From Nitrosopumilus zosterae (GTDB lineage: Archaea > Thermoproteota > Nitrososphaeria > Nitrososphaerales > Nitrosopumilaceae), in the NCBI RefSeq assembly GCF_025998175.1, contig NZ_AP026695.1, positions 1,056,760 through 1,120,759 of the forward strand: a stretch of 64,000 nucleotides of DNA, in the 5' to 3' direction. Position numbers and translations under genes: made by a program. Below are positions 16,882 through 43,695 of this stretch, one piece after another. Under the pieces are notes generated by a model. It was not told the origin of the DNA. It searched no databases and was given only the letters and a program-made list of their open reading frames with translations. How positions within the stretch are numbered: the stretch's first letter is position 1; the number at the start of each line of letters is the position of its first letter.

Positions 16882-16961
16882 TTAAGATCGTCGATCAATA
16901 ATTATCAAAAGTCTAATTTTCATTTTCCTCTCCAAACCAAAAAACCAATCATACCCATCAT
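16882..16961 (-). pseudogene. Relic of an exported-protein gene pair (5' ends only)
   Basis: On the minus strand an ATG at 16961 (MMGMIGFLVWRGK, stop at 16920) overlaps by ATGA a second start at 16923 (MKIRLLIIID.., stop at 16882). Both look like beginnings of signal peptides that run into stops after 13 codons. The same arrangement, including the promoter, recurs at 30.2-30.4 kb in longer form. I read it as a decayed copy of a secreted-protein operon. Confidence 0.6.
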
Positions 16962-17005
16962 AAAAATCCAAAAATTATCCCTTTTAAGAAGTACTCGTGA
17001 ATTCT
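16950..17005 (-). repeat. Duplicated promoter/start segment, copy 1 (56 bp)
   Basis: 53 of 56 bases match 30388-30443 in the same orientation. On the minus strand it reads as a TATA-like CTTAAAAGGG followed about 27 bp later by the MMGM start, so it is a duplicated promoter plus start region rather than a mobile element end. Confidence 0.8.
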
Positions 17006-17082
17006 AAAGTGTTGTTTTTACTCAAATCATATAGTATGAATCATACGACATGCTTAAAAGGCAAAGCCAGAAAAATTGAAAA

Positions 17083-17901
17083 ATGGTCGGAAAAAATACA
17101 ACTGTGATTACCACTGTTGTGGGATTATTTGGAGTCAGCATAATTGCATTTTTGTTACTATCAACACCTTCTGATCAAAAAAGCATTCCAGTTGAAGACG
17201 ATATCCGCATAGTGGCAGACACAAAATATAATCACTATACAAACGGTGAAACCATCAACATTTGGGGGAAAATAATGAACTCAAAGGGAATGCCACTGTC
17301 TGAATACAACCATGCCATTACTCTCCAGATACTTGATGATGGAGATATGCTAAAGGAAATTGCACAAGTTACTCCCAGCTCTGATGGTATGTTTGAACAC
17401 ATGATCAGTACTGATTCATCTATCTGGGAAAACGGAAAATACCAATTGAAGGCGTTTTATGATCAAAACCTTGCCACTGCATATTTTGAAATCGACGGAC
17501 ATAGACCAAATTACACTTATGAGTACGATAGTGATCCCCTTGGCAATTACAAGACATGGTGCAATGAAACAGGAGGCATATACTCAACAGGTGACAGGAT
17601 TGGTTGTCAATTTGAGACAAAAGAGAAAGCATACAACGCAAGAGACTTGTTACACCAGATGGAAGAAAGAACAATCGAGGGATCACTTGCACAAAAACTT
17701 TGTCGAGCTTATGGCAAAATCTGTGATCAATTCACCCGCATCACAATGGAATATGACATGATAACAGGCGAACTGTACAAGCTAAAGGCGTTAGAAGGGA
17801 GAGAAACACCTTATACAGAATTCAGAATAATTGAAGGTGATGTTGTACAGTACAGGCCTGCAGTCAAACCAGCTGTCAACTGGATAACATTTGATGGTTA
17901 G
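17083..17901 (+). CDS. Exported/membrane-anchored Ig-like protein
   Basis: 272 aa. A hydrophobic N-terminal helix (VITTVVGLFGVSIIAFLLLS) exports or anchors it. Residues ~38-125 form a beta-sandwich (DTKYNHYTNGETINIWGKI..., ITLQILDDGDM..., WENGKYQLKAFYD) like the extracellular Ig-type domains common in thaumarchaeal surface proteins. The rest (WCNETGGIYSTGDRIGCQF, CRAYGKICDQF) has four Cys that may form disulfides. A perfect 13-bp palindrome GTATGAATCATAC (17034-17046) lies 37 bp upstream of the start, next to a TATA-like TTAAAAGG. Confidence 0.75.
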   Translation: MVGKNTTVITTVVGLFGVSIIAFLLLSTPSDQKSIPVEDDIRIVADTKYNHYTNGETINIWGKIMNSKGMPLSEYNHAITLQILDDGDMLKEIAQVTPSSDGMFEHMISTDSSIWENGKYQLKAFYDQNLATAYFEIDGHRPNYTYEYDSDPLGNYKTWCNETGGIYSTGDRIGCQFETKEKAYNARDLLHQMEERTIEGSLAQKLCRAYGKICDQFTRITMEYDMITGELYKLKALEGRETPYTEFRIIEGDVVQYRPAVKPAVNWITFDG

Positions 17902-17947
17902 AAGAATCCTTGGTCTTTGAGAACTGCAGCAATAAAGACATTCGCAC

Positions 17948-18736
17948 TTAGATGTGATAAATAATACTGTATTCACAAGGAACAATGTGAAATACATGTG
18001 TTGATGTTGGGTAAACAAAAGCAGTAAGATTTTCCATCCAACCGGTTCTTGCAATTAGTTTTGTAGCAGATTCAGGTTTTACGCATGCAGGAGAACTGTC
18101 ATGATATCTAAAAATCAATTCAAGAGAATCTTTGCATTTTACTTCAAATGAATGTAAACCGGATTTAATTTGTTTTAACGGAGCAGGATAAACGATATTA
18201 AACTGGTCTAGTCTATCTTTGTTTTTTTCAAGATGTTCCATAGTACATGGATCGTAGACTAGTTTCCACGGATGAATTCCACCTCTCCATTCAAGAACAG
18301 ATAATTCTGACATGGTAAAGGTAGCAATTATTTCGGTTTTCCCACTATCATTCAGTACTGTATGGTCAATGTACTTTGCAAATACAGTGTCGCCTGTAAA
18401 TGCTTGTACTCTGTGGCCCAAAACATCATCAGTTGTTCTAAAAAATACTGTTCCTTCAAATATTCCAGCATCATTGTTTGTTTCAATAACTGGAACGTTA
18501 ATTACTCTGTTTTCAGAATCAGACCAAACCTCAATATCAAATCTATCTATTTTTCCTGGATTGGTATTCATATCGTCATCTGTAACCATTATGACATAAG
18601 AACTACTTCCAGTAAGATGACATCTATCTATCCATTCAAGATTTCCAATGTTATATTCATACTCTGGTAAACCATAGACGTTGTTAAAACCAAACAGAAT
18701 CACAATTACTGCAATTATAAAAAATATTGTTTTCAT
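17948..18736 (-). CDS. Secreted protein: S-layer-like Ig domain plus Cys-pair C-terminal module
   Basis: 262 aa with a signal peptide (MKTIFFIIAVIVILFG, cleavage near VYG). Residues ~45-140 carry the pattern DDDMNTNP..IDRFDIEVWSDS...IETNNDAGIFEGTVFF, seen repeatedly in thaumarchaeal S-layer-type proteins. Near 190-235 comes a module PLKQIKSG..., VKCKDSLELIF..., ACVKPESATKLI..GW that recurs in at least four other proteins of this window. The last gene of a five-gene leftward cluster starting at 21.6 kb. Confidence 0.75.
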   Translation of the reverse strand: MKTIFFIIAVIVILFGFNNVYGLPEYEYNIGNLEWIDRCHLTGSSSYVIMVTDDDMNTNPGKIDRFDIEVWSDSENRVINVPVIETNNDAGIFEGTVFFRTTDDVLGHRVQAFTGDTVFAKYIDHTVLNDSGKTEIIATFTMSELSVLEWRGGIHPWKLVYDPCTMEHLEKNKDRLDQFNIVYPAPLKQIKSGLHSFEVKCKDSLELIFRYHDSSPACVKPESATKLIARTGWMENLTAFVYPTSTHVFHIVPCEYSIIYHI

Positions 18737-18758
18737 TTTCTAATCCCAGCAATATTCT

Positions 18759-18992
18759 CTATGGCCAATTTGATTCGCTAGTAATGAAACCGGTTCCGGC
18801 ATTAAAATCAAATCCTTCAGGAAATACAGGTTTGCAATTAATGGGTTTCTGTAACCAGTTAATATCGCATACTATCACTACCTCGTCTTGCAACGAATCA
18901 AAATCTCCCTCTTCATATACGGTAAAATTTGCTGCCAACAAAAGACCAACAACAATAACTAAAATAAATATGATTTTGATTCTAGTTTTCAT
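18759..18992 (-). CDS. Small MKTR-type exported or membrane protein
   Basis: 77 aa starting MKTRIKIIFILVIVVGLLLAA, one hydrophobic segment, then a short acidic exterior part with two Cys (VCDIN, INCKP). The start is set at ATG 18992 because the upstream in-frame extension (to 19055) overlaps the previous gene and is not signal-like. It begins 8 bp after the stop of the 62-aa gene, so it belongs to the same transcript. No known family recognised. Confidence 0.65.
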   Translation of the reverse strand: MKTRIKIIFILVIVVGLLLAANFTVYEEGDFDSLQDEVVIVCDINWLQKPINCKPVFPEGFDFNAGTGFITSESNWP

Positions 18993-19000
18993 TTTTCTTA

Positions 19001-19189
19001 TCACCAGAAAATTCCAAAATATTGATGAATTGTATATGTTAACAAAGGGCCACATCCATTAACAGAACCAAACCAATTTTTTGAAATATCTCCACCTGTA
19101 AGAATACAAGTTGTCCCAAACATATTCACAATTATCACAGATACAAAAAATATTACAATACCAGATGTTATTTTGTATCTAGTTTTCAT
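19001..19189 (-). CDS. Small MKTR-type exported protein with two Cys
   Basis: 62 aa beginning MKTRYKITSGIVIFFVSVII, a signal or anchor helix, then a short part with Cys in GTTCIL and NGCGP. The start overlaps the end of the 646-aa surface protein by 11 bp; the bases ATGAAAACTAG code MKT(R) here and HEN-stop in the upstream frame. The same arrangement recurs at other places in the window. Function unknown. Confidence 0.6.
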   Translation of the reverse strand: MKTRYKITSGIVIFFVSVIIVNMFGTTCILTGGDISKNWFGSVNGCGPLLTYTIHQYFGIFW

Positions 19190-21119
19190 GTCTCGTGAAA
19201 TATTCTGGATCCCAACTGGGTTTGCGGTCTTCTATTGCATTACCATGTGGTGCAAGTTTTGGGTAAACATAGTACCATTTCTCTTCATGCTCAAAGGCAA
19301 AATCTGCATTCATACATACGTCATTTGTGGCATAAGGTCTTTGCTCCCTGCATTTTTGCTCAAAAAACTGACGGTATTGTGTTATTTGATCATCATTTAT
19401 TCTTAGTGACAATTCAGATAAAGGCTCCAAAGGAAAATCAGCAGTCATATTTACCAACATGCCAAGTCTGGGAAGAGAGTCCACATCTTGATGGTTTATT
19501 TTGTAATAATGTAATGTTCTCAAATCAAATTCTGTGAATTGTCCAAACTCACCTTGTGGGATTACAAACATGAACATCTCCATATAATCTCCATCGTCGT
19601 ATTGTTTTGCCTTTTGTTCTTTTTCGGATATCACTGTAAACTCAATTTGTATAGGAGGCGATAACGCAGTAGGATTGTCTACACTTTCCCAGACAAACAT
19701 CGTTGCCACATAGTGACCTTCTTTTTGAGGAATCCAAGAAGCAGAGGGGCTAAAAGAAGATTCAGGGTTCAAAATCCCATCAATCCATGCCAATGATACG
19801 GTAATACCAGTACCATCTTGGATCATTACAAGATATGTGAATTTTTGCTCTCTATCACTTTCGTTTGCAATATCAGATGTTATCTGAATTTGTTGCCCTA
19901 CTGCAGGAGAATCAATAAAATTTCCAAAAGAATCCATAATTCTTGGATGAGATATAGGTGCCCTTTCAAGTGGGGGACCAGTGGATCCCAACCACGCAGT
20001 TGCAGCCATAAAAACTCCTTCAGAGTCAAAAGACTGTACAGGATCATACAGTGCAGTCAATGTATCGCCATATCTTCCATACAAGATGTTTGGGGCAGAA
20101 CGCTTATCGCTAAATGCAAATGTACGCTCAAAAATCCCTGAATCTTTGTTTGTTTCATAAAGTTCAATGGTTATTCCTTCTATGGAACTATCAGAAAAAA
20201 TTCTTGCTTTTACAGTATCGATACTATCTGCAAATTTATTTTGTTCAGGATCAGTTACAATAATTTTAGCAGAGCTTGTACCATTTTTTGTTTTGTAATT
20301 TCCCTGACTCCACTCTATTTTTTTGTCGTCTATTTGCTCAAGTGGAAATGGGGGTAGTTCTACTAGTACTGTCAAATCATCATCAATGCCATATGGTTTT
20401 GGAAGGGTATGGTCATCGTATTGCACATAAATCATATCACTAGGGAGTGCAAACAAACGATTTCCCTTCGAATCATGTTGTGATGAAACTGAAAAAATAG
20501 TTACAAAGGTTCCAGGATCATCAGACAACTCTCTTGCATCAATTACCAGTCCTGCTTTATCAGAATCAGAAAATACTTGTATGGAAATCTTGTCTCGGGA
20601 TTCAGGATTAAGATTCATATCAACATCATGTACTTTGATGTAGATGCGTTCCCCAGAGTCATTAAACAATCTATCAAAATCAATAGTGGCTACATTCCAG
20701 TTGATTTTTGCAGTTTTTCTAATCTCACCTCCGTCTGCAAATTTTATGGAAAGCGTAAAGTCATCATCCCTGTCACTCTCAAGAAAGCCATTGTTAGGGC
20801 CGTTGCCAACTGTCTTAGGATTAGTGTCTGGTTCTCCATCCCCTGTAACATCATGAGAAAAACCAGTAAGGATTATCTCTCCAGTAAACAATCCATTTCC
20901 AGCCTTTGCCAGACTGTAGTTTAGTTCGTGGTTTGATGTGTATATCTTTACTTGAGTGCCTTCAGAATCCACCCCATGTTCTGTGACTCTTATGTTGATT
21001 TTATCAGTCCAAGTGTATACGTCTTTGTCAAAATAGATAGAGGCGTACACATCAGATGCAAAAAAACTTGAAGATGCAGAAATCCCAAGTACAATGATTA
21101 TCAAAAAATTGGTGTTCAT
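19179..21119 (-). CDS. Large secreted S-layer-like protein with Ig-type repeats
   Basis: 646 aa from ATG 21119 (a TTG 15 bp upstream is possible but overlaps the previous gene). A signal peptide ends near VYAS. Then follow at least three extracellular beta-domains with S-layer-type signatures: YFDKDVYTWTDKINIRVTEH, VHDVDMNLNPES..SIQVFSDSDKAGLVI, TDPEQNKFADS..RIFSDSSIEGI..ETNKDSGIFERTFAF. A further domain (~400-500) includes VWESVDNPTALSPP. Acidic patches (DRDDD, DVTGDGEPDTN) could bind Ca2+. It is likely displayed on the cell surface. A frame-shifted fragment of a paralogue survives at 30.3 kb. Confidence 0.8.
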   Translation of the reverse strand: MNTNFLIIIVLGISASSSFFASDVYASIYFDKDVYTWTDKINIRVTEHGVDSEGTQVKIYTSNHELNYSLAKAGNGLFTGEIILTGFSHDVTGDGEPDTNPKTVGNGPNNGFLESDRDDDFTLSIKFADGGEIRKTAKINWNVATIDFDRLFNDSGERIYIKVHDVDMNLNPESRDKISIQVFSDSDKAGLVIDARELSDDPGTFVTIFSVSSQHDSKGNRLFALPSDMIYVQYDDHTLPKPYGIDDDLTVLVELPPFPLEQIDDKKIEWSQGNYKTKNGTSSAKIIVTDPEQNKFADSIDTVKARIFSDSSIEGITIELYETNKDSGIFERTFAFSDKRSAPNILYGRYGDTLTALYDPVQSFDSEGVFMAATAWLGSTGPPLERAPISHPRIMDSFGNFIDSPAVGQQIQITSDIANESDREQKFTYLVMIQDGTGITVSLAWIDGILNPESSFSPSASWIPQKEGHYVATMFVWESVDNPTALSPPIQIEFTVISEKEQKAKQYDDGDYMEMFMFVIPQGEFGQFTEFDLRTLHYYKINHQDVDSLPRLGMLVNMTADFPLEPLSELSLRINDDQITQYRQFFEQKCREQRPYATNDVCMNADFAFEHEEKWYYVYPKLAPHGNAIEDRKPSWDPEYFTRHEN

Positions 21120-21121
21120 TG

Positions 21122-21589: not shown

Positions 21590-21712
21590 ATGATGATTTC
21601 AATATAAGCACTTCATAAAGTATTCTAAGCTTTGTACAAATCCTACAAATTCAAACTTGGGATTTCATGTTCTAACATGCTCAAACTAGTCTGCATAGTT
21701 TATTTTGTCATG

Positions 21713-22092: not shown

Positions 22093-22190
22093 CACTACCA
22101 GAAGCATTATGATAGGTTAATGGGTTTTTATAAATCACGACTAATTACCCACTGTTTTTTCATAAAATTAACAATATTTATTAAATTACA

Positions 22191-23084
22191 GTGGATATCA
22201 AAACAGTGGTTTCTGTCGTTTCAAGGAGGAAAAATGGAAAAAGATACTATTCCCTAAAGCACACCACTGGGAACAAGCAGAAAGAAAAGTATCTGGGATT
22301 GAGAATTCCAAAAAACATCGAGGAAATAAAAAAAGAGTTTCTGCTGAAATTTTATCATGAGCAATGGGATATGCAGATAAGTGCAATAGCAAAAAATTAT
22401 CAAAAAGAAACAAAAAGCAAACCTCCGTCAATAAAACAAAAAGACTTTGAGAGTTTTGGAATATCGTTTACATACAACACACAGAGAATGGAGGGTTCAA
22501 GTCTAACTGAGGCAGACACTAGGGACTTGCTGGTACACGGAGTAACACCTACCAAAAAATCCCAGATTGACAGCATAGAGACAAAAAAACACTATGATCT
22601 GTTTATGAAGCTTGTAACATCAAAGAATACAAAAATTACAAAGAAGACTGTGATGGGTTGGCACAAAGAAATTTTTGATCAGACAAAAATCGGCGAGGCA
22701 GGGAGCATCAGAACATATCGTGTAGGCGTAATTACAAATGACAAGATAGAGTTTGCCCCAGCACACAAAATTCCAGAAAGACTGGATGCATTTTTCAAAT
22801 GGCTAAACAAAAGTAAAACAACAAACTTTGTCGAACTTGCAGCACTTGCTCATTATTACTTTGTATCCATCCATCCATTTGGAGATGGAAATGGAAGAAT
22901 CTCAAGATTGATTATGAACTACATCCTGTTTATCCACAGATGCCCGTTTATGCAGATTAAAAACAATGACAGACACACATACTTTAAGGCATTAGAGAAA
23001 TCTCAGATTAAAAGAGATGAAATTCATTTTCTAAAGTGGTTTATGAGATATTACATTAAATCAAACAGAAACCATCTGGAATAA
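22191..23084 (+). CDS. Fic-domain protein (AMP-transferase type) with N-terminal inhibitory motif
   Basis: 297 aa. The Fic core carries the full active motif HPFGDGNGRISR (H228), expected to transfer AMP (or another nucleotide moiety) from NTP to a hydroxyl on a target protein. An inhibitory-helix motif TQRMEG (T97, E101, G102) matches [S/T]xxxE[G/N] N-terminal to the Fic fold, i.e. class II, self-restrained. The basic N-terminus (residues 1-40, RRKNGKRYYSLKHTTGNK) resembles a DNA- or RNA-contacting arm. The start is GTG. No dedicated antitoxin gene sits on the same strand; a ribbon-helix-helix gene converges from the other side. Confidence 0.9.
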   Translation: MDIKTVVSVVSRRKNGKRYYSLKHTTGNKQKEKYLGLRIPKNIEEIKKEFLLKFYHEQWDMQISAIAKNYQKETKSKPPSIKQKDFESFGISFTYNTQRMEGSSLTEADTRDLLVHGVTPTKKSQIDSIETKKHYDLFMKLVTSKNTKITKKTVMGWHKEIFDQTKIGEAGSIRTYRVGVITNDKIEFAPAHKIPERLDAFFKWLNKSKTTNFVELAALAHYYFVSIHPFGDGNGRISRLIMNYILFIHRCPFMQIKNNDRHTYFKALEKSQIKRDEIHFLKWFMRYYIKSNRNHLE

Positions 23085-24590: not shown

Positions 24591-25754
24591 ATGAAAATAT
24601 TGGAAACAATAATTATGGAGGGATTTTTCTTGTCAGATAAATCCCAAGAATCATACGCCGTAATTTTAGGGACTGTCATAGTCATTATTTTCACAGTATC
24701 ATTAACTGAGAATTTACAGTTTGCAGATGCAATTTCTGTTTCTGCAGATAAATTAATCTATGATATTGAAGTGGGGGATACTTTATTGCTTTATTGGTCT
24801 GTAAGAAATACAGATCCATACCCAATAGATATAGAATTTTATGCAACTGGTCCTGGTTCTGAATTACTAGTTTTTGAACAATTCGGACATTTAGATGTTA
24901 AAGAAAGAAAGAGTTTTGAAATTTTAGCGAGCATTCCAGCAGATTATGAAGATAATGTAGAATATAGGCCAGTGCTACACGTTCTACAAAGATCGCAAGA
25001 TCCAGATTCAGAAGAATCAGTCGATGGTGCTTCTGTTGCCAAAGTCAATGTTGTAATGAAAACTGTACCCATAATTAGAATTGGAGAAAATCCAGTTTAC
25101 AATCCACCAGTAATTGAGAATTTAGAAAAGCCTGAATCTGACCCAGCATTGGAAAAAGCAAAGTCGCCAGAAGTAATTGAAAAAGCAGAAACTATTGAGG
25201 AAAAATTGGCCAGAATACAAGCATTTAACCAAGCCAATACACAAAAAGATACTTCACAAACAACGACAATAGAAAATCCAGTTGTTCAAGACGATAATTC
25301 TAGATATGAGCCAGAACCCAAAATGGATCCTGAACCAGTAATAGATACAATTGTGGATAAAAACGAAATGGTAAATGGTGGAGGTTGTCTTATAGCTACA
25401 GCGGCATATGGAACTGAGATGGCTCCACAAGTTCAATTCCTCAGAGAGATTAGAGACAACACTGTCATGAGTACATCATTTGGCGCAGCGTTCATGACTG
25501 GATTTAACACGCTATACTATTCATTCTCACCAACAATTGCTGATTTGGAGAGAGAAAACCCTGTTTTCCAAGAGGCAGTTAGAGCATTCATCACTCCGAT
25601 GATTTCAACACTAACTATAATGATGTTAGCTGAAGATGGTTCTGAAATCGAAGTACTTGGACTTGGAATTTCAGTAATTACACTAAATTTGGGAATGTAT
25701 ATTGTAGCACCAGCAGTAGTAGGATTTACAATTAATAAACGCCTTAAGAAGTAG
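24591..25754 (+). CDS. Exported CFI-box protein with C-terminal membrane part
   Basis: 387 aa. A hydrophobic N-terminal segment (YAVILGTVIVIIFTVSL) acts as signal or anchor, then a beta-domain (~50-165, ISVSADKLIYDIEVGDTLLLYW), a Pro/Glu-rich flexible linker (~170-260), and at ~267 the CFI-box GGGCLIATAAYGTEMAPQV followed by LREIRDNTV and two hydrophobic helices. The CFI-box-CTERM domain is frequent in thaumarchaeal surface proteins; its invariant Cys may carry a lipid or cofactor, which is not established. The ATG at 24591 is used; ATG 24615 is an alternative. The box GGTGTATAAC lies about 80 bp upstream. Confidence 0.8.
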   Translation: MKILETIIMEGFFLSDKSQESYAVILGTVIVIIFTVSLTENLQFADAISVSADKLIYDIEVGDTLLLYWSVRNTDPYPIDIEFYATGPGSELLVFEQFGHLDVKERKSFEILASIPADYEDNVEYRPVLHVLQRSQDPDSEESVDGASVAKVNVVMKTVPIIRIGENPVYNPPVIENLEKPESDPALEKAKSPEVIEKAETIEEKLARIQAFNQANTQKDTSQTTTIENPVVQDDNSRYEPEPKMDPEPVIDTIVDKNEMVNGGGCLIATAAYGTEMAPQVQFLREIRDNTVMSTSFGAAFMTGFNTLYYSFSPTIADLERENPVFQEAVRAFITPMISTLTIMMLAEDGSEIEVLGLGISVITLNLGMYIVAPAVVGFTINKRLKK

Positions 25755-30179: not shown

Positions 30180-30399
30180 TCAGATAAAAAATGAAAAAGA
30201 TAGGAATACTGTAATCATCAAAAGCCCAATTTTCATTTTCTTACAGAATTATTTGACAAACAAATCAAGCTTAGTGGTGGAGATAGAACAGTAGGATTGT
30301 CAATGGATTCCCATATACAGGATTAAAAATAAAAATTAAACCTGTAAACACGATCAATCCTAACAGAATTTTAGAATTCATCCCAACCATACCCATCAT
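30180..30399 (-). pseudogene. Decayed secreted-protein locus (two broken genes)
   Basis: From ATG 30399 the frame reads MMGMVGMNSKILLGLIVF..., a signal peptide ending near VYG, then goes out of frame and stops at 30271 after 42 codons. In the next frame the same bases read WESIDNPTVLSPPL, almost the same as VWESVDNPTALSPPI inside the 646-aa surface protein at 19.2-21.1 kb. A second start at 30236 (MKIGLLMITVFL..) stops at 30180. Together they are a frame-shifted, largely deleted paralogue of a surface-protein operon; the copy at 16.9 kb is an even shorter remnant. Confidence 0.75.
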
Positions 30400-32010: not shown

Positions 32011-32107
32011 TATATATCACACACTGATGAATCATTAGTGAATATTATAAACAAACTCCGCATAATTTCAGGATGCGATGAAAGGAGTCATTTCATCAGT
32101 GTGTATA
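32011..32107. promoter_or_regulatory. 12-bp inverted repeat flanking the promoter of the coiled-coil gene
   Basis: ACACACTGATGA (32019-32030) is the exact reverse complement of TCATCAGTGTGT (32093-32104), with 62 bp between. The left arm is 30 bp from the ATG of the 422-aa gene, and part of it (ACACTGATGAAT) recurs upstream of the paralogue at 35470. Also in the gap 32108-32222 a short GC-poor hairpin (TAGTCGGG/CCCGACTA at 32127-32150) is visible. Confidence 0.55.
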
Positions 32108-32126
32108 ACCGACCATAGCGCTTCTA

Positions 32127-32150
32127 GTCGGGTCAGATTTTGGCCCGACT
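32127..32150. terminator. Small hairpin TAGTCGGG...CCCGACTA
   Basis: An 8-bp perfect stem with an 8-nt loop in the gap before the 83-aa gene. It has no long T-run; it may be a terminator or an RNA-structure element of a short transcript. Confidence 0.4.
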
Positions 32151-32222
32151 AACAAAAATAAACATTTTGTGTCTGCAAATAATTCGAATTACTTATGAAT
32201 ATCATAATTTTAGATTACATTA

Positions 32223-32474
32223 TTGAAGGTATTCTACACCAAACACTTTGATGATCCTACATGTGAAAAATTTACGGAATTTCGAGTCGACACTCATAGA
32301 ACTTGGTGGTGCTGCAAGCAACTCAAAGAACATGACAAGCATTTCCAACTTTGGAATGTCAAATGGGCAAAATTCCATTTCAAGGATATCAGCACAGAAG
32401 GAAACATTGCGTTTTTCCAAATGAATTACTGTCCATACTGCGGTGAAAAAATAGAATATACTTGCATGGAATAG
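32223..32474 (+). CDS. Hypothetical protein with C-terminal zinc knuckle
   Basis: 83 aa from TTG 32223. Aromatic- and His-rich (HRTWWCCKQLKEHDKHFQLWNVKWAKFHF) with a C-terminal YCPYCGEKIEYTC that forms a zinc-ribbon half together with earlier Cys. Soluble. It is followed after 3 bp by the 54-aa membrane protein, so they are co-transcribed. No family recognised. Confidence 0.6.
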   Translation: MKVFYTKHFDDPTCEKFTEFRVDTHRTWWCCKQLKEHDKHFQLWNVKWAKFHFKDISTEGNIAFFQMNYCPYCGEKIEYTCME

Positions 32475-32477
32475 AAA

Positions 32478-32642
32478 ATGAAGACTAGAATCAAAATTTT
32501 AGCCATTGGATTTTTACTCTTGGCATCGGGTATTTCTTTGCATTATTACAATAATAATTATGGATTTTTAATTTTGCCACTAGGTTGCTTTGTGGTATTG
32601 TTGGGATTTACTTATCAAAGATGGTGGAGATTTAAAAAATGA
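32478..32642 (+). CDS. 54-aa MKTR-type small membrane protein
   Basis: ATG 32478 to TGA: begins MKTRIKILAIGFLLLASGIS, then a short loop with YYNNN and a second hydrophobic helix GFLILPLGCFVVLLGF, ending in a basic WWRFKK. Two transmembrane helices, both ends probably cytosolic. Its first 12 bases (ATGAAGACTAGA) match the cassette found at the starts of several minus-strand genes. It follows the 83-aa gene by 3 bp. Confidence 0.6.
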   Translation: MKTRIKILAIGFLLLASGISLHYYNNNYGFLILPLGCFVVLLGFTYQRWWRFKK

Positions 32643-33924: not shown

Positions 33925-34013
33925 TACAAGTACTCCGCGTATTTTTATTTAGATAATGTCATGCCAAATCTAGCAGGTTTGTTTTAGATAACTGTTAGTT
34001 GGAACTCTAGTTG

Positions 34014-35462
34014 TCATTGTCTGGAAACTGCTTCATATCCGGTATGACCCATGTTCAATCTGACCTCTACATATGGATCATCATCATAAAGAGAAACAAG
34101 CTCTTTCATGCGGTCTTTGAATTCTTTCTCAAGGTTCTTCAGGTCGTCAATTTTCTTCTCAAGAATAGATTCTTTTTCCGATTCAAGATTTTCCCTAATC
34201 TTGCCAATCTTTATGCTCAATTCCTCTTTGGACATGCCGGGGCGTTGATTATAGTCAACAGTTGCATTCTTTTCATCTATTTTTGATTGGGATATGGCAT
34301 CATCATATTTTTTGTCGTATTCTTTTTTTAGCTCCATTTGTTTTTCCTCAAGCTCTTGTTTCATTTCTCGTATTTGCAAATTCACTTCCTCGACTCTTAC
34401 AGATTTGTCTTTATTCTCAATGCTGGTTGCAACATAATCATCTACGTTATGAAATTCTGCCAGGCCTTGTTCCATCCATTCTTTTGCAGTGTCATCAGGT
34501 ACGCAGGAATATTTCCGAGTTTCAAGATTAAATATTACGCTGAATCCGTCATTGCATTTTGTAAGTGGCGTGATTGGTTCTTGTGAAAACCTATTTTGTG
34601 TATTACCTGTAATCTCACCCATCCCATGTCGCACCCACATTTCTGCAGTAGAGATACTCACGCAGACATAATCTTCTGCATGAAATCGATACACCACAAC
34701 ATTACCCTCCCGGCATTCGGTATCAGGAGTGGTTTTGCCAAGATCCTCCCATGAAACAACATCATTTGGATTTGCCTGAAGATATGCAGGGTTTGTCCTG
34801 TAATCCTCATAGTATTTTCGTAGCTGCTCACCAGTAATAGGAGAATCAATGAACTGCCCTTCTTTATCAAAGAGAATTTGCTGTGAATAATATGCCAAGT
34901 TATGGTTCACATTAAACTGCGAATTTGTTTCAATAAGCTCAATTCGTTTGGTCTCAGCTGCTGCAAGATATGCCTGAAGTGCATCACGTCTGGAGCCGCC
35001 ATCAGCAATTACTTGTTTGAAGGCATCTCTTCCTGCCTCGACTTTTTGTTCCTTGAATTCAAACTGATCCCAAAAAACATCTTGCACTTGAGAGTCAGGA
35101 ATTTTGTCGATAAATCTGTCAAATGCGTTGTAAGATGAATAATAATCCCACAGTTTTTCCCAGTCTGCCAGATCCTGATTCAGTATTTGGAGAGATTGCG
35201 CTCTTTTTGCTTCCAGTTCCTTTTGCGCTTCTAGTTTTTCATAGTCTTTTTGTTCTAGGTCTCTAATCCATTTTTTTGTCTGCTCTATCTTTTTTAGAAT
35301 GTCTTGTGCAACTGGATTGTTTGAGAGATCACCGGACAATGTGGTCTGGTTGCTTGTCTCAACTGGCTCTTGGGCATAAATTGGACTTGCGAGGAATGCA
35401 AAAACAACACAAATTCCAAGAATTGCCACACCGAACATGAAAAATCGACTGAGTTTTTCCAT
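34014..35462 (-). CDS. Secreted coiled-coil protein (paralogue of 30721-31989)
   Basis: 482 aa with signal peptide ending SPIYAQ. Same layout as the 422-aa paralogue: LSGDLSNNPVAQDILKKIEQTKKWI, coiled coil, AGRDAFKQVIADGGSRRDAL, YYSQQILFDKEGQF, GEQLRKYYEDYRTNPAYLQANP. It differs in having two consecutive Cys-pair modules, CREGNVVVYRFHAEDYVCVS...W..HGM and CNDGFSVIFNLETRKYSCVP...W..QGL, so the module was tandemly duplicated here. The C-terminal coiled coil spans ~365-460. Expected to be at the cell surface. Confidence 0.75.
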   Translation of the reverse strand: MEKLSRFFMFGVAILGICVVFAFLASPIYAQEPVETSNQTTLSGDLSNNPVAQDILKKIEQTKKWIRDLEQKDYEKLEAQKELEAKRAQSLQILNQDLADWEKLWDYYSSYNAFDRFIDKIPDSQVQDVFWDQFEFKEQKVEAGRDAFKQVIADGGSRRDALQAYLAAAETKRIELIETNSQFNVNHNLAYYSQQILFDKEGQFIDSPITGEQLRKYYEDYRTNPAYLQANPNDVVSWEDLGKTTPDTECREGNVVVYRFHAEDYVCVSISTAEMWVRHGMGEITGNTQNRFSQEPITPLTKCNDGFSVIFNLETRKYSCVPDDTAKEWMEQGLAEFHNVDDYVATSIENKDKSVRVEEVNLQIREMKQELEEKQMELKKEYDKKYDDAISQSKIDEKNATVDYNQRPGMSKEELSIKIGKIRENLESEKESILEKKIDDLKNLEKEFKDRMKELVSLYDDDPYVEVRLNMGHTGYEAVSRQ

Positions 35463-35535
35463 ATAATAAACACTGATGAATTATTAGTAAAATTTTGGAT
35501 TTTGCGCACAGATGAAAGGTTTTTTCAGAAAAATG

Positions 35536-35871
35536 CTAAGATAACTCCAACATTACCTGTTTTGCAGTAATCATGTCACTATCATCATGATATGCAATAA
35601 CGTAGAGAATAGCAATGCCATTTCCAAGTGAGGTAATGTTAGACAAGACTATTTCATCATAAGTGGTGTTTTCTGAGAAATTAGGAATGCAGCTTACACA
35701 TCCTATCTCATATAGGGATATGGAATCATCGTGATTCCATGTCAGGTGTACTGATGCTAGGGAATCATCATATTCAAGTACGGTTGCATTAATGTCATCT
35801 AGCGGCTGAGCATATGCAGTGCCAAACAGGCCTGAAACAGCCACACACATCACTATAAGCAGGGATTTCAT
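35536..35871 (-). CDS. Small secreted fibronectin-III-like protein
   Basis: 111 aa with a signal peptide (LLIVMCVAVSGLFGTAYAQ) and one ~90-residue beta-domain: SLASVHLTWNHDDSISLYEI, CVSC pair, ITSLGNGIAILYVIAYHDDS, KQVMLEL. The 'L.W....... Y.I' and 'Y.V.A....' strands resemble fibronectin type III. The CxxC may be a disulfide or a metal site. Stand-alone gene with its own promoter. Confidence 0.6.
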   Translation of the reverse strand: MKSLLIVMCVAVSGLFGTAYAQPLDDINATVLEYDDSLASVHLTWNHDDSISLYEIGCVSCIPNFSENTTYDEIVLSNITSLGNGIAILYVIAYHDDSDMITAKQVMLELS

Positions 35872-35911
35872 GATATGGTAATTTTGAAATTTTGATATTG
35901 ATAAACCCTTC

Positions 35912-35935
35912 TTATCTTTTGTATCTAGTTTTCAT
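35912..35935 (-). pseudogene. MKTR cassette relic (7 codons)
   Basis: Minus-strand ATGAAAACTAGATACAAAA followed by GATAA: MKTRYKR then stop. The first 19 bases are identical to the start of the 62-aa gene at 19189. No coding continuation is seen, so this is a leftover of a duplicated gene start. Confidence 0.5.
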
Positions 35936-36018
35936 GCTAGATTTCACGAATCAAGACTAAACGGTATCAAATCTGTGGCCTAATGCCAATCCTATTTGGT
36001 TTTGAATTTTAATTTTTA

Positions 36019-36456
36019 TCATGCAATCCATGAAGTAATAGAAAAATAATTTCCTTCATATACAACAACATTAGATTCAAAACTTTGTGTGAAATCTTGA
36101 TACAAGTTTCTCGCTCCTGAATCAGACATGTGGTTTTTTATTTTTAGTTCTCCGCGAGAATCAAAAATTCGATAAGTGTCAAAATTTACAAAAAAACTTC
36201 GCGTTCCTTGAGGATTTTCCTTTTCTTCTAATAATAAATTGATCATGATAGAGATTTGTGGGAACTGCATCAATTCTTCTTGTGTAATAGTTTTTGGTTC
36301 AGAGACTGCAAAATGTTCTATCTGTTGTTCAGATAGCAATTGTACGTAAATTCCAGCATGGTGAATGGAAAACCCATTAATTGACATGTAATAAAAAAAC
36401 CCAATAGGAACTACGATCAAAACAAGTGCAACAAGTATCAAAAGTCTAGTTTGCAT
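36019..36456 (-). CDS. Exported/anchored small protein of MxTR type
   Basis: 145 aa from ATG 36456 beginning MQTRLLILVALVLIVVPIGF, one anchor helix, then an exterior domain (IYVQLLSEQQIEHFAVSEP, FPQISIMINLLLEEKEN, RSFFVNFDTYRIFDSRG, VVVYEGNYFSITSWIA). The pattern resembles a small alpha/beta sensor-like domain but I recognise no family. Its start overlaps the stop of the 493-aa gene by 11 bp, with ATGCAAACTAG read in both frames. Confidence 0.6.
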   Translation of the reverse strand: MQTRLLILVALVLIVVPIGFFYYMSINGFSIHHAGIYVQLLSEQQIEHFAVSEPKTITQEELMQFPQISIMINLLLEEKENPQGTRSFFVNFDTYRIFDSRGELKIKNHMSDSGARNLYQDFTQSFESNVVVYEGNYFSITSWIA

Positions 36457-37927
36457 TTTTTGCCCATCCTCTCTCAATTAGTTTGGTCTTAGTTTCAGGT
36501 TTTACGCATGCAGAAGAACCATCAGATGTTATAACTAAAATTAAATCATCAATACATTGTACATCATCAAATGATATGCCTGATTTTATCTGGTTGTGAG
36601 GTTTTGAGAGTTTCTTTATCTCACTAAGGGGTTTTGAGAGGCCAGCAGATTTTGGATACATGTTTTCAAACAACCCTTTTTTTGGTTCAGAACTTTGATC
36701 ATCATATCCTATGACATAACCATACACTGGATAACATACATCATTTTGATCATATGTCAAGACAAGCACTCGTAAAAGAAACATGCCATGATGAAATTCA
36801 GAGTATGTACGAGGATTTCCAGGCTCATCAGGCGTCTTAAAGTGCTCAAATGTTGCAGAAGGATAACTTTGAAGGAATTGCTGTACCACAGGATCTCTGT
36901 CCAGCATCGCCCTCACTGCAATTGCATCATTGACGTCACATAATTTTGTCTTAAAAGAATCATGGTTGGATATTATGTCAAGATACACATTTCCTACTTG
37001 CTTGTACAGCATGGTCTTGTATACATCCAATGTAAAAAGCGGATTGTGTTTGTCATCAATTCCAACAGTAATCACGGAATTTTTTGGATTGATATGCAAA
37101 GACGATATTGGAATTCCAAAATCTTCATCGTTCATAATTTTGTTCAATATGTTGAATGTCTTGTCTGCTTCTCTGAATTGGTCTGACATTACATGAATTG
37201 TTCCAATAACATCATTTGTCCTGTGCTCTGCTAGAAACAATTGGTATTCCCCAGGCTGAGAGAACAAGAAGGATGATTTTCTATCAGGAATAATTATACT
37301 GTGAAATCGATTATTAGAGCTCCAACTAATTCCATCTTTATCTTCCATGTAAGTCCCAGTTGAAATGTAACGAACATCAGGAGTAATGTTGCTCAACTCC
37401 ACAACAGTTCCAACATCTACATTCATCACGGAAGGATCTGTACATGCAACAAGACAATCATCAGACAAATCAGAATATATTCTGACTGTCTTTTTTGGAT
37501 AGGTTTTGTTATCGTCTAATGCTGGAAATGTAATTATATCTGAAAATGGCTTCTCACCATAAAAAATTCCTGAAACATAGTTCCCTTCCAAGGGTGGAAC
37601 AAACTGATATGAAACAGTTGTAGATGCACCATGTTTTAGAGGAATGGATTGTTTTTGATGATCTAATATTTTGTCATTTATAGTACGTGTAGTGAATGCT
37701 ATTTCAAAATGGTCAGCATCTTCTTCATTGTTAGTTATGATGGTTTCAAAAATTATAGGCTGTCCAACAATTCCAGTCGATACAATAGTGTCATCTGTAT
37801 TTTTTGCAATTAATGGTTCAAATTCTAATGCATATACAGGAAGAGTTGTAAACATTCCAAATAATGCAATTGATCCACCAATTATCAAAATTAGAATTTT
37901 TTCATACAATATAATTTTGGTTTTCAT
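36446..37927 (-). CDS. Secreted multidomain protein with cupredoxin-like region and Cys-pair module
   Basis: 493 aa with a signal peptide (IIGGSIALFGMFTTLPVYA). Residues ~40-140 form an Ig-like domain (GIVGQPIIFETIITNNEED). Residues ~165-255 look like a cupredoxin fold (VDVGTVVELSNIT, FHSIIIPDRKSSFLFSQPGEY, HRTNDVIGTIHVM), but of the copper ligands only one or two His remain and no Cys/Met is evident, so copper binding is doubtful. The C-terminus has NQIKSGI..VQCIDDLILVI...ACVKPETKTKLIERGW, the recurrent module. It starts 3 bp after the stop of the 472-aa gene. Confidence 0.75.
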   Translation of the reverse strand: MKTKIILYEKILILIIGGSIALFGMFTTLPVYALEFEPLIAKNTDDTIVSTGIVGQPIIFETIITNNEEDADHFEIAFTTRTINDKILDHQKQSIPLKHGASTTVSYQFVPPLEGNYVSGIFYGEKPFSDIITFPALDDNKTYPKKTVRIYSDLSDDCLVACTDPSVMNVDVGTVVELSNITPDVRYISTGTYMEDKDGISWSSNNRFHSIIIPDRKSSFLFSQPGEYQLFLAEHRTNDVIGTIHVMSDQFREADKTFNILNKIMNDEDFGIPISSLHINPKNSVITVGIDDKHNPLFTLDVYKTMLYKQVGNVYLDIISNHDSFKTKLCDVNDAIAVRAMLDRDPVVQQFLQSYPSATFEHFKTPDEPGNPRTYSEFHHGMFLLRVLVLTYDQNDVCYPVYGYVIGYDDQSSEPKKGLFENMYPKSAGLSKPLSEIKKLSKPHNQIKSGISFDDVQCIDDLILVITSDGSSACVKPETKTKLIERGWAKNAN

Positions 37928-37930
37928 TTT

Positions 37931-39349
37931 CTAATCAATTTCCGAAAGTGACTTTGCAATACTCATCACCTCATAAAGAGGCAAATGTGCTGTGATTTTA
38001 TAGCCGGCAGAATTTTTTTCATCAAAAACATGAACTCGTGTAGGCTCTATCCATTTTTCATCATAAATCCTATCATTATCTACCAACTGCTGTATCATAC
38101 CATTAACGCCTATTATGTAAAATCTAGAATCCACAACAGATGTTTGAAAGCCAACATTGTTTTCCTTGTATTGTGTCTTGTATTGCTCCAAAAATGTTTC
38201 TCCATCTGACTCTAAAGGAGCATCAGGAGAAAAGGCAATCACAACCTCGATCTTTCCATCTTCTAACGTATGTGCATCCGTGCCACACGTATTTCCTCTA
38301 GCATAGTTTAACAGAATAATGCCAGGATGAATGTTATCTGTGCTTTTTAGCGAATACCCAACAGGAAGGTGTCTTGGAGCTAGAATGTCAATAGAAGATT
38401 CTGCCCGTATTTGTTCCAAGGAGGGTCCACAAAATACCGATATTGTGTTTTGTGTGGGTTTTGAAATCAAGTTTTTAACAGAAAACTCTTCTGTGATAAT
38501 GGTATGTCCAAACTTAATCTCAAAGATGTAATTCCCAGTGGTTTCAATTATAGGATATTTTTTGTTTCTTGGCACATCAATTGTTGATTTGCTTAGTTTG
38601 GGAGGATCTAGGGTGACACAAGAGCCAGATGATCCATACCCCCATACATTGTCATGTGAAATAGTGTATATTTTTGCATCATAGTTATTGCATTTATTCC
38701 ATCCCAACTTTTCAACTGCAATTTTAATCGGCTCGCCAACATATGCCGTGTCAAGCCCCACAACTTTGTATGATGGAGATACTGTCCAATGACGTTCAAG
38801 TAATTTCTGTTTAGAGTCAGGTGTCACACAAGCGGGAGTTTCATCATATTTTTCAATTAACATCAAACCTTCTTTGCATTGTATGTTATGAATTGGAATA
38901 TCTGACTTGAATTGTTTTAGGGGAGAAACGATGAATGCCTCACATCCTTCTATTATTTCAGGATATTCAGGCCAAAAAGTAAACACGAGTTCTATTGTTT
39001 TAGGCGTCTTTGTTTCAATATTTATGTAGTAAAAACAATCATCGGAGGTGTATTCAGGTGCAATCTCTTCTCCGTTTTTTAGAATGAATGGTCCTGGTCC
39101 TACTTTGTATACTTTGGGAGATTTTATCTCCAAGACTGCATTGTAGCCAGTTTCAAAGACTACTGAAGATGAATCAAAATCAAATAAAACAGAATCCACA
39201 TTTTTCTCATTATAGTAAACCTTCCTGAAGTCATCATCTACCTGAACCAGTATTGAATCTGTAAATGACGCATATGCAGGAGGAATTGCAAACATTCCAA
39301 ATAATGCAATTAATCCACCAATGATCAAGAAAATTGCAAAATACTTCAT
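37931..39349 (-). CDS. Secreted multidomain protein with internal Cys-pair module
   Basis: 472 aa; signal peptide MKYFAIFLIIGGLIALFGMF to PPAYA. Residues ~25-130 are a beta-domain, then the recurrent module SPLKQFKSDI..IQCKEGLMLIEKYDETPACVTPDSKQKLLERHW (~140-190), a second Ig-like domain (VGEPIKIAVEKLGWNKC...., YPIIETTGNYIFEIKFG) and a C-terminal alpha/beta domain. Its signal-peptide DNA closely matches that of the next gene although the mature parts differ, and its promoter resembles that of the 435-aa gene at 43.7 kb. Confidence 0.75.
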   Translation of the reverse strand: MKYFAIFLIIGGLIALFGMFAIPPAYASFTDSILVQVDDDFRKVYYNEKNVDSVLFDFDSSSVVFETGYNAVLEIKSPKVYKVGPGPFILKNGEEIAPEYTSDDCFYYINIETKTPKTIELVFTFWPEYPEIIEGCEAFIVSPLKQFKSDIPIHNIQCKEGLMLIEKYDETPACVTPDSKQKLLERHWTVSPSYKVVGLDTAYVGEPIKIAVEKLGWNKCNNYDAKIYTISHDNVWGYGSSGSCVTLDPPKLSKSTIDVPRNKKYPIIETTGNYIFEIKFGHTIITEEFSVKNLISKPTQNTISVFCGPSLEQIRAESSIDILAPRHLPVGYSLKSTDNIHPGIILLNYARGNTCGTDAHTLEDGKIEVVIAFSPDAPLESDGETFLEQYKTQYKENNVGFQTSVVDSRFYIIGVNGMIQQLVDNDRIYDEKWIEPTRVHVFDEKNSAGYKITAHLPLYEVMSIAKSLSEID

Positions 39350-39559
39350 ATAGTATGAAATCCTATGCAGTCATTGAAAAGTTCTTCGCAGGTTTTGCAT
39401 CACAACTAAATATTTTTCATAAAACATTGGTAATAGTGAGAACAACTTGTCAGGAATTATCGTTTCATATGAATTGGGCATTATTATCACGTTTAGGTGG
39501 TTTGACATGAATCAGCAATATTTTTAATATGATAAGAGGCCATATTACATAGTGGAAAT

Positions 39560-39676: not shown

Positions 39677-39688
39677 CCTATTGTTATT

Positions 39689-40111: not shown

Positions 40112-40176
40112 TAAGATAGTTTATTCTTCTTTGCATTTTGTATTAATGTTATCCATTTATTATTCTGCTGGATTCA

Positions 40177-40716: not shown

Positions 40717-40957
40717 CTGTCCTGGCGATGATTATTCATGTGTACAATACTTGAAAATATTTTGTTTATAACGTTTGATAAAATCTGAATTTTACCTAAC
40801 ATTTAATTCATAAAACATGTTCTATATTTCAATACCGTACTAGATGTGAAAATTCATTTTTGATTTAATCATAGAAATTTATCGTATTGATTCACACACC
40901 ACGGTCAAACCCCGACATGCATACACTTGTTTTCATTTTTCAACACAATTTCAATTG
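40717..40957. other. Intergenic region, nothing recognised
   Basis: 241 bp upstream of the 179-aa gene and downstream of the nucleotidyltransferase. AT-rich. No ORF, RNA gene or clear palindrome seen. Confidence 0.35.
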
Positions 40958-41839
40958 CTAAATTCGAAATAATTTTTGCAGTGTAATCATATACAGTCCA
41001 TACACAAATTTTGTGCTCTTTAGCATGTATCGGATTACAAATCCCTTGTTCATCACCATGTTGTCTTTAGTCTTCTTGTATTCTAGTGATTTTATTAGAT
41101 GCTCTGAATCAATTTTTGATTTGCCAAAAATAGACAGAATCTGGCATACCTCTTGCTTTGTAGTAGATAATGGTTTATCCAATGCAAATAACACATCGTC
41201 GCATGCCCAGAAATTGGCCTTTACAGCATGAGAGAATGCAGACTTTGGACTGAACGGAAATATTACAAAACTCATCATTAAAAGCAACATTGCGTTAAAT
41301 GATGCTTTTACCTTCTCAATTGCAGGTACTGTGTTTGGAATATCTTTTCGAACATCTTTGCCATACAGAATGATTCCAGTGTGTTTTATTCTTTGAAGGA
41401 ACAGCCCAAGCGAGGCTATGGTCCTAGTACCAATCTCAATTTTGATGTCTTGCCTTATCTTGAATCCTTTCAAGTCAAGCTGGTCTTGAGATACAACATA
41501 AAATGGCTGTCCAAACATCATCTTGTTTTCAGTTTTGAAGATTAGATCAAGTGTAGGATTCTCAGTCTTTTTGTAGGCAGTACACGTCTCAGATAACTTT
41601 AGATCATACTTTGCGTCAAGTACAAGTAATAGATCAGTTAGATATTTTTCAATATCTTTGCAGAGTTTTTTATTTTTGATAATTACGATGCAGTCAATGT
41701 CTGATTTTCCACGCACCCATTCCCCAGTTGTTGCAGAGCCAAACAAAACAAATGAAACTATTTCATCAGGGTATTTGGCAGTTAGTTGCTCAACTAATTC
41801 CTTCATGAATTGCTCTAATTTTTTATTTTTTATCGTCAT
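40958..41839 (-). CDS. Pol-beta superfamily nucleotidyltransferase
   Basis: 293 aa, cytosolic. The N-terminal catalytic domain has the hallmark LFGSATTGEWVRGKSDIDCIV (in two parts: GS at 34-35, catalytic D47 and D49), and a likely third acid in the LDLIF strand near 100. The rest is helical (HEPN-like bundle, ~150-290: TRTIASLGLFLQRIKHTGIILYG, KASFNAMLLLMMSF). The combination of a minimal NTase with a helical domain resembles kanamycin-NTase/MNT-HEPN fusions, which modify small molecules or tRNA. The target is unknown. No neighbouring HEPN gene is present. Confidence 0.75.
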   Translation of the reverse strand: MTIKNKKLEQFMKELVEQLTAKYPDEIVSFVLFGSATTGEWVRGKSDIDCIVIIKNKKLCKDIEKYLTDLLLVLDAKYDLKLSETCTAYKKTENPTLDLIFKTENKMMFGQPFYVVSQDQLDLKGFKIRQDIKIEIGTRTIASLGLFLQRIKHTGIILYGKDVRKDIPNTVPAIEKVKASFNAMLLLMMSFVIFPFSPKSAFSHAVKANFWACDDVLFALDKPLSTTKQEVCQILSIFGKSKIDSEHLIKSLEYKKTKDNMVMNKGFVIRYMLKSTKFVYGLYMITLQKLFRI

Positions 41840-41920
41840 TGTAAACTATGTTGAATTGTGCAATCACACTCATAAACTATTCCAGAAAGTAATCAACAAC
41901 CACATTCTTTTGCCTATTTT

Positions 41921-42004
41921 TCATTTTGACTTTATTGTTTTTATCCACATCAATACAACACTTGTGCTAACAATTGCAGGTATTGTCAAAAGTCTAGTTT
42001 TCAT
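41921..42004 (-). CDS. 27-aa MKTR micro-ORF, perhaps a gene remnant
   Basis: ATG 42004 gives MKTRLLTIPAIVSTSVVLMW and IKTIKSK, then TGA. Its start overlaps the stop of the 130-aa gene by 11 bp in the recurrent ATGAAAACTAG arrangement. The hydrophobic run is short for a membrane helix. It could be a truncated exported-protein gene (its first 19 bases match the 36456 gene apart from one base) or a translated micro-protein. Confidence 0.4.
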   Translation of the reverse strand: MKTRLLTIPAIVSTSVVLMWIKTIKSK

Positions 42005-42386
42005 TCAAACATCTAATCCGGTCATTGTAATCCATTCCAAAAAATCTAGATATCATTGCTCCCCAACAATCAAATACGCCTGTAATGTAAATTACAAAAA
42101 TCATTGTACTAATTAGAAATACGATGTATCCAAGTTTCCAATTTTTGTGTGTCTTTTTTAGATTGATTGGCAAACAGATAATGTTTGCAAAATAAATTAT
42201 CCACAAACCAATCATTGCATAATTTTGCGTGACCATTCTTACTATATCAGAAATATTTCTTTCAAACATGATTAGTGGACCCAGTGTAAAATAAGATGCG
42301 CCAATACTTAGAATTCCGACGATTACTGCATTAAGCATAAACAAAATATTTGTCTTGTATGATGGAATTTTGAATCTAGTTTTCAT
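41994..42386 (-). CDS. MKTR-type three-helix membrane protein
   Basis: 130 aa from ATG 42386 beginning MKTRFKIPSYKTN. Three or four hydrophobic helices: LFMLNAVIVGILSIGASYF, NYAMIGLWIIYFANIICL, GYIVFLISTMIFVIYITG, and a C-terminal part with two Cys (DCWGA, IRCLN). A longer in-frame start upstream overlaps the 435-aa gene and is not used. It follows that gene by 1 bp. No family recognised. Confidence 0.65.
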   Translation of the reverse strand: MKTRFKIPSYKTNILFMLNAVIVGILSIGASYFTLGPLIMFERNISDIVRMVTQNYAMIGLWIIYFANIICLPINLKKTHKNWKLGYIVFLISTMIFVIYITGVFDCWGAMISRFFGMDYNDRIRCLNEN

Positions 42387-42387
42387 T

Positions 42388-43695
42388 TCATTCTTGAGGT
42401 GTATATGGTTGATATTCATCATCATCGACATTTTCAGGAACATAATTTTCAATAAACAGAATCAACTCTATTGATGATGAACCTTTAGGCACTTTGAAAA
42501 CATAATCAGTGTGGTGTTGTGGATATGGCGCATCTGGTGCTCTAATGAATAGTTGTGTATTGTAATTTACTTCTACACCATTAACTAGTATTATTACGCC
42601 TGTCAAATTCCCGGCATTCCATTCGTTTGGCCCATAACTCATGTAGTAATTGCCCCCATTTTTTGGCACTCTGATTTTTACAAAAGTATCATCAGTGCTT
42701 GGCTCAAAATTCCAAATCGTGTTGCTATCCTCTGGCATAAACTCTATCAAATTTATCTTAAAAGGTGTGGAATACTCGAAGAGATTATAATGCATAGTTT
42801 CAGGATACATGTAATTTCTCTCCAAGAGTTTTTCTACAGAGTTTGGTTTTAAGAACACAGTTTCCATTCTGAGGTTTTTCCATGTTTGTAGTTCTGGAGG
42901 CACGTCGGATTTTTTATTGACTTTTATCGAGTGTGTTTTTGCGTTATCGCTTATTGCACATAAAGGTGATAATTTGTCATCTAGATGAAAATCTCCCAAA
43001 ATGTTATTTCTCATAGAACCGCCAAAATATTTTAGACCATGCCTATCTTTTTGAAATTCACCACAAAAAGATAAAACATTCTCACCATAATCAAAATTAA
43101 ATTTCCCAACAGTAAACTCTTGATCATTTAGATTTGGATTTCCTCTCAATTCGTGTTTTACTGCAGCAGACACAATGGCTTCCTGATCATCAGTCAAGTA
43201 TGATTTTTCTTCAAGAAATATTGCAGCTACCTGTTGTTTTAGCGGACCAAAACACCATCCAAAGTTGGATTCTTCAATTTCAAGTCCATGAACTGATTTT
43301 GGAGTTGGGGTTTCAGTGAATATCTTGGTGTATTGTATGTCTGTACTGTTAATTGCAGATTCTAGCCAATATACCTGATTATCTGTGTAATCAATCACAT
43401 ATCCACAATTGTAACTATTTGGTGTATACATTGCAATTTGTGGACCACGTTCAAGTACAATATCTTGTGTAGAAATATACACATCATACTCTATTCTGAG
43501 CTTCTTTTGAAAAATTTCAGGCATTATTTTTGCAATTAGCAGATCATAGTCAATGTATCCATCAGAGGTAAATCGCACGTTATAATTTTGAGTGTAGGGG
43601 ACATAATCTCTACCAGATGGAGAATAGTCATCAGATTGGGCATGTGCAAGTCCAACAAATCCAACAAAAATCAAGAAAATTACAAAATATTTCAT
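42388..43695 (-). CDS. Secreted protein with jelly-roll-like C-terminal domain
   Basis: 435 aa from ATG 43695, signal peptide MKYFVIFLIFVGFVGLAHAQ. The N-terminal half (~25-210) is mixed, with QNYNVRFTSDGYIDYDLLIAK and Cys pairs (YNCGYVIDY, GWCFGP). The C-terminal ~130 residues (FKINLIEFMPEDSNTIWNF, FVKIRVPKNGGNYYMSYG, AGNLTGVIILVNG, HTDYVFKVPKGSSSIELILF) are beta-rich like carbohydrate-binding or jelly-roll domains. Between them SVEKLLERNYM recalls the end of the recurrent Cys-pair module. It is first in a three-gene minus-strand set. Confidence 0.7.
   Translation of the reverse strand: MKYFVIFLIFVGFVGLAHAQSDDYSPSGRDYVPYTQNYNVRFTSDGYIDYDLLIAKIMPEIFQKKLRIEYDVYISTQDIVLERGPQIAMYTPNSYNCGYVIDYTDNQVYWLESAINSTDIQYTKIFTETPTPKSVHGLEIEESNFGWCFGPLKQQVAAIFLEEKSYLTDDQEAIVSAAVKHELRGNPNLNDQEFTVGKFNFDYGENVLSFCGEFQKDRHGLKYFGGSMRNNILGDFHLDDKLSPLCAISDNAKTHSIKVNKKSDVPPELQTWKNLRMETVFLKPNSVEKLLERNYMYPETMHYNLFEYSTPFKINLIEFMPEDSNTIWNFEPSTDDTFVKIRVPKNGGNYYMSYGPNEWNAGNLTGVIILVNGVEVNYNTQLFIRAPDAPYPQHHTDYVFKVPKGSSSIELILFIENYVPENVDDDEYQPYTPQE

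Follow-up and report, generated by a model that had tools for sequence, protein, structure and literature searches.

Hinge starts and cassettes at the locus

The window, i.e., the whole stretch of 64,000 nucleotides analyzed here, corresponds to positions 1056760-1120759 of the Nitrosopumilus zosterae genome, which is one contig of 1,775,052 bases. It harbors a strain-variable island with gene cassettes (16937-43845). All starts coding MK/Q-T/I-R that an earlier note on this DNA had listed are present, on the minus strand at 16923, 18992, 19189, 30236, 35935, 36456, 42004, and 42386 and on the plus strand at 32478; that list omitted the degenerate starts at 18736 (MKTI, 262 aa) and 37927 (ATGAAAACCAAA, 493 aa) as well as a degenerate copy at 34017. 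The exact 12-mer ATGAAAACTAGA is referred to as the core, and the ~40-bp block around it, which consists of a ribosome binding site (RBS), the start codon and the first signal-peptide codons, as the hinge. A cassette would then reach from one hinge to the next, comprising signal-peptide codons, a gene body and the RBS of the following gene, and hinge stubs may be terminal or emptied hinges.

The left edge of the island lies on such a stub of 13 codons (MKIRLLIIID, ATGAAAATTAGA; 16912-16923, minus strand), and in the near relative G082 this edge likewise carries a stub, ATGAAAACTAGACTTTTGATAATGCTTGAT (49313 of the fetched stretch), with different DNA attached. The degenerate hinge MKTI (18725-18736, minus strand, 29.9 bits) is the start of a 262-aa WING-49 gene (17948-18736) and at the same time the end of a cassette shared with G082. 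This 77-aa cassette, reaching from hinge 18992 to hinge 18736 (18737-18992, minus strand), is 84% identical to G082 348907-349161, and the homologous block ends at most 7 bp from hinges in both species, with different neighbors. A 62-aa cassette from hinge 19189 (18993-19189, minus strand) has a relative in G052, and the 651-aa ORF upstream of this hinge terminates at a TAG inside it (19181-19179). Another degenerate stub of 18 codons, MKIGLLMI, is located at 30225-30236 (minus strand, 25.8 bits). The plus-strand hinge (32478-32489) starts a 54-aa membrane protein and shows 95% identity to G082 upstream and none downstream; the 83-aa gene upstream of it (32223-32474) is also present in G082, there joined to a different gene. 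The stub hinge 35935 and the degenerate hinge 34017 enclose a unit of several genes (34008-35935, minus strand), which is 92.7% identical to the hinge-ended G082 350744-352677. Its stub MKTRYKR (7 codons, 35924-35935, minus strand) contains the exact 12-mer, and the same stub occurs in G082 at 350744. The 145-aa cassette MQTR with the hinge ATGCAAACTAGA (36001-36456, minus strand) is 87.6% identical to G082 355247-355705; the 493-aa WING-49 gene upstream terminates in this hinge, and G082 has another upstream gene. This 493-aa gene itself begins at the degenerate hinge at 37916-37927 (minus strand), the end of a shared block (37920-39331). Finally, a hinge precedes a 27-codon ORF (41993-42004, minus strand), and the 130-aa cassette from hinge 42386 to hinge 42004 (42005-42386, minus strand), 92.3% identical to G082 368747-369128, has hinges at both ends in both species and different upstream neighbors. 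A word match inside a gene, at 25056, looks like chance and was disregarded.

Besides the hinges, a second start type, MKYF, heads the genes at 39349 and 43695 as well as genes in the arrays of the relatives G082 and G013. It belongs to a leader element with a TATA-like box and a conserved 5′ region. One copy, at 39312-39450 (minus strand), comprises this 5′ region together with the MKYF start of a 472-aa gene; the other, at 43641-43776 (minus strand) close to the island's right edge, combines the TATA-like TTTATAAA with such a 5′ region and an MKYF start. The conserved 5′ region reads GATACAAAACATCAGAAGCACTTTTCAATGACTG, or GTTCAAACCTGTATGGATT in others.

Sequence, distribution and stop-start design of the hinge

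The N. zosterae genome (1.78 Mb) contains 14 copies of ATGAAAACTAGA, which are clustered, vs. two of the reversed word. Among 60 genus genomes examined, counts of the word reach 22 (G013; reversed word 0) and 16 (G052; reversed word 2), in one-strand clusters. In the window, 33 matches with at most two mismatches were found vs. 16.5 ± 4.2 in shuffled sequence, so that the starts are alike beyond chance, as is also seen from their codon choice: Leu5 is TTG in 83% of the hinges vs. 21% genome usage, Ile6 is ATA in 70% vs. 26%, and Thr3 is ACT in 93% vs. 35%, the latter partly forced by the picking of the sites. A site model covering positions -12 to +28 detected, at a threshold of at least 12 bits, 204 sites vs. 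one in reversed sequence within 825 kb of fetched stretches, i.e., loci picked because they contain word matches, with their surroundings, flanks and a few comparison stretches; the family-wide search with the model counted no more than 25 sites per genome, so that its site numbers are lower bounds. The consensus consists of a G-rich part (-12 to -9), AGAAA, ATGAAAACTAGA and then either CTTTTGATAATTATTGG (117 sites) or TACAAAAT (30 sites). The two DNA word types that the earlier note had described are real, and they follow the core as a CTTTTG-like (L-type) and a TACAAAA-like (Y-type) word.

The core is conserved in the genus and in neighboring genera. When ~85,000 species genomes were searched with an extended word, 42 stretches matched, and nearly all of these are titled Nitrosopumilus, Nitrosarchaeum or Thaumarchaeota/Nitrososphaerota archaeon; the hinge word therefore recurs in many Nitrosopumilaceae and is essentially absent elsewhere in these genomes. 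The extended word has zero exact matches among the IMG/VR viruses, and virus-borne transfer was rejected on this ground. Bacterial hosts were rejected as well, since the two contigs with a hinge in bacterial MAGs (L142 Planctomycetaceae, L157 Saprospiraceae) match Nitrosopumilus island genes and are likely misbinned Nitrosopumilus. In the open-access literature searched, we found no account of the word or of such arrays.

The core carries stop codons in two frames (ATGA, CTAG). TGA is present at +1 in 200 of the 204 sites and TAG at +8 in 175, and a third stop (TAG) at -6 is found in 66. Upstream ORFs of at least 60 codons indeed terminate at these positions (57 at +1, 38 at +8, 26 at -6 among the 204 sites). 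Thus, whichever of the three frames an upstream gene arrives in, it is terminated there, while the ATG begins a new ORF. Since the stops at +1 and +8 are inside the exchanged core, they are kept through any exchange. The hinge would therefore close whatever arrives from the left and open what stands to the right, making an exchange harmless to both reading frames, so that hinges would accumulate where cassettes swap. A site that is stop codon, start codon and exchange point in one is not described in the open-access literature searched.

Homology breaks at the hinge

Both flanks of the island (1-16936 and 43845-50099) are collinear with G082 at 94-95% identity, but the content in between is replaced. 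The island spans 26.9 kb in N. zosterae vs. ~4.4 kb in G082 and ~1.1 kb in G013, and at this position G082 has in common only a Fic-type gene (22097-23071) and 32106-32489. In these genome comparisons, which are between species, the differences are concentrated in the region, as the earlier note had expected, and the island edges almost coincide with the borders it had drawn. The Fic-type gene (22191-23084) is retained in the G082 version of the island at 90% identity, with nearly all of its surroundings different. In the left flank, 9932-11600 is GC-richer (43%) and has repeats inside it, which in G082 and G013 align with one another. Elsewhere, G082 contains a 40-kb array (C1:342.8-383 kb) with ~30 hinge starts on one strand, and several island genes have relatives in this array, in different surroundings. 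A 760-bp cassette is even present twice in it, with different upstream neighbors and different following genes.

Homology was scored separately for the 250 bp upstream and the 250 bp downstream of 202 sites. Of 98 homologous site pairs, which are not independent and come from loci picked by the word, 97 break at the hinge (upstream-only 61, downstream-only 36, both 1), whereas control points 200-400 bp off the hinges gave 5-26 pairs with homology on both sides, 1-10 upstream-only and 2-21 downstream-only. Clustering of the pairs gives 24 groups on the upstream side and 25 on the downstream side, and therefore the signal is not one event counted many times. Moreover, of 212 homologous-block ends, 54 are at most 15 bp away from a hinge vs. 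3.3 ± 2.1 in the null. In clean pairs, upstream homology runs to -1 and is lost by about +9 to +12, and downstream homology begins at +13 to +15, which places the switch point between 0 and +13, in the 12-bp core. It follows that the RBS region goes with the upstream cassette and the signal peptide, from codon 5 on, with the downstream one. In such clean pairs, the hinge bases +10 to +12 agree with neither of the two partners, which would fit a variable joint.

From these data, it is quite likely that Nitrosopumilaceae have a gene-cassette shuffling system and that its joint is ATGAAAACTAGA, placed in the ~40-bp context. Foreign DNA would be taken up and then exchanged at the hinge, preferably joined by the short shared sequence or else by a putative recombinase. 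The earlier note had proposed a different process, in which promoter and start are repeatedly copied as a 5′ end onto different bodies. The starts are alike and the proteins are indeed unrelated past them, as the note had stated, but the 5′ end is not the moving piece: the DNA before the ATG follows the upstream gene, the codons from +13 on travel with the downstream body, and entire hinge-to-hinge cassettes are shared. No class of hinge pairs with a long common 5′ end and different bodies was found among the pairs compared. We therefore regard this proposal as not correct as stated, since whole genes are swapped hinge to hinge with the switch in the core, and as highly improbable. It may apply to the MKYF leader, where one shared 5′ end stands on different bodies: the leaders form a 22-member cluster with different genes behind.

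Cassette shuffling at the hinge also has to be weighed against ordinary illegitimate recombination of operon genes followed by selection, the hinge being only a good signal for translation coupling. Breaks would then be seen at hinges because other junctions would wreck genes, and the RBS-like GGAG, the overlapping stop and start codons and the signal peptide start fit such a role. Within the islands, breaks are frequent at gene boundaries without a hinge, too; near hinges, 0.74 of the homologous pairs at non-hinge gene starts do so, with an upstream-only signal that is mostly the leader element. However, at nearby operonic junctions that lack a hinge, the break frequency is 0.5 of homologous pairs (few pairs) vs. 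0.99 at hinges, synonymous positions past the core are conserved, and the identical 12-mer stands on both sides of a cassette, which makes selection on ordinary recombination an improbable explanation on the whole. Clean insertion events (A-B vs. A-X-B) were not seen among the compared hinge-to-hinge units.

At their N-terminus, the hinge-started proteins have a short basic stretch and a segment of hydrophobic residues, and judged from sequence, the cassette genes look exported. Among 80 array and island proteins, 25 Pfam families were matched, each in one or two proteins, including a serpin, a matrixin-like peptidase, and a universal stress protein; WING-49 occurs in 16 of the 80 and weak matches to an S-layer model in three. 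Same-strand arrays and similar N-termini could also have arisen if one membrane-protein family had been duplicated in tandem and had diverged everywhere except in its signal peptide. This is hardly credible, since 252 hinge-to-hinge units make up 211 DNA families and the Pfam families matched include unrelated domains such as the serpin and the universal stress protein. The shuffling system would rather supply a changeable set of exported proteins, which may diversify the cell surface.

Cassettes also appear to cross species borders. The housekeeping gene thi4 of G015 is 83% identical to that of N. zosterae and of G082, and some cassette flanks reach 91-95% identity; for G002 and G031 the values are 84% for thi4 and 92-94% for the cassette flanks. 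Cassette flanks that are closer than thi4 suggest transfer, and since other pairs are without such an excess, transfer is supported for the G015 and G002-G031 cases only.

Mode of joining and known systems

An unrecognized site-specific recombinase acting in trans on the core, integron-like but a new enzyme, would explain why the switch is held to ~13 bp. Partners sharing only ~15 bp (L-type with Y-type words) were joined, which is short for classical homologous recombination, and the conservation of the core in the genus and neighboring genera points in the same direction. However, serine recombinases (PF00239) are absent in five of five genomes tested (the control responded in 10 of 14), the tyrosine recombinases are diverse with none clearly common to the five array-bearing genomes, and a scan of 80 array and island proteins listed neither a recombinase nor a transposase family. 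As the sequences next to the core differ (L and Y types), it has no conserved binding arms. An enzyme acting in trans is therefore rather unlikely, and a dedicated integrase was rejected as a candidate, since none is common to the five genomes. The N. zosterae genome has two PF00589 places, both outside the window. It remains a tentative thought that the hinge represents a dedicated exchange system, integron-like but unrelated, with an unrecognized enzyme and a translation stop-start junction as its site, by which genes for exported proteins are traded between species.

Integrons with their attC cassettes, archaeal integrons (PMC9668308) included, resemble the hinge arrays in their same-strand single-gene cassettes, whose order and neighbors change at a short conserved site, and in cassettes that seem to move between species; of these traits, same-strand single-gene cassettes with changing neighbors are found here. 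However, the hinge spans both stop and start codon, whereas the integron site stands between genes, no intI-like gene is present in the window or common to the genomes tested, and the arrays are probably headed by a leader gene that carries a promoter. The hinge is conserved in sequence and lies inside start codons; no Rfam family matched in the window at the Rfam cut-off. The work on archaeal integrons names no Nitroso- taxon (PMC9668308). In the vsa, vsp, and vpma loci of Mycoplasma (Xer1, HvsR; PMC2268961), genes for surface proteins likewise undergo recombination at a conserved site located at their start or close to it, but there inversions join one promoter to silent genes and the recombinase is encoded nearby (PMC2268961). 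The hinge cassettes, in contrast, keep their own start and the same direction, the array sites of G082 being almost all on one strand, and no Xer-type recombinase was found at the locus. With replacement flexible genomic islands (PMC4033161) the island has in common that one chromosomal place holds different genes in related strains. The title of that work ascribes the diversity to homologous recombination (PMC4033161), whereas here genes are exchanged within the island, at a 12-bp hinge that recurs.

If the hinge is such a defined joint, it would explain how such islands change and why unrelated genes have a common signal peptide, and it would serve as a simple DNA tag for cassettes in metagenomes. 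Nitrosopumilaceae are among the most abundant cells of the ocean and have many unexplained exported proteins. Short conserved ends also guide the replacement of variable segments in Borrelia vlsE and Neisseria pilE, there by gene conversion within one expressed gene, whereas complete unrelated genes are swapped at the hinge.

The arrays probably have their promoter end in the MKYF leader, from whose promoters they would be transcribed. At G082:C1:349161 a hinge core runs straight into the leader's TACAAAACATCAGAAGC, a fusion from which the MKTRYK word type may have arisen.
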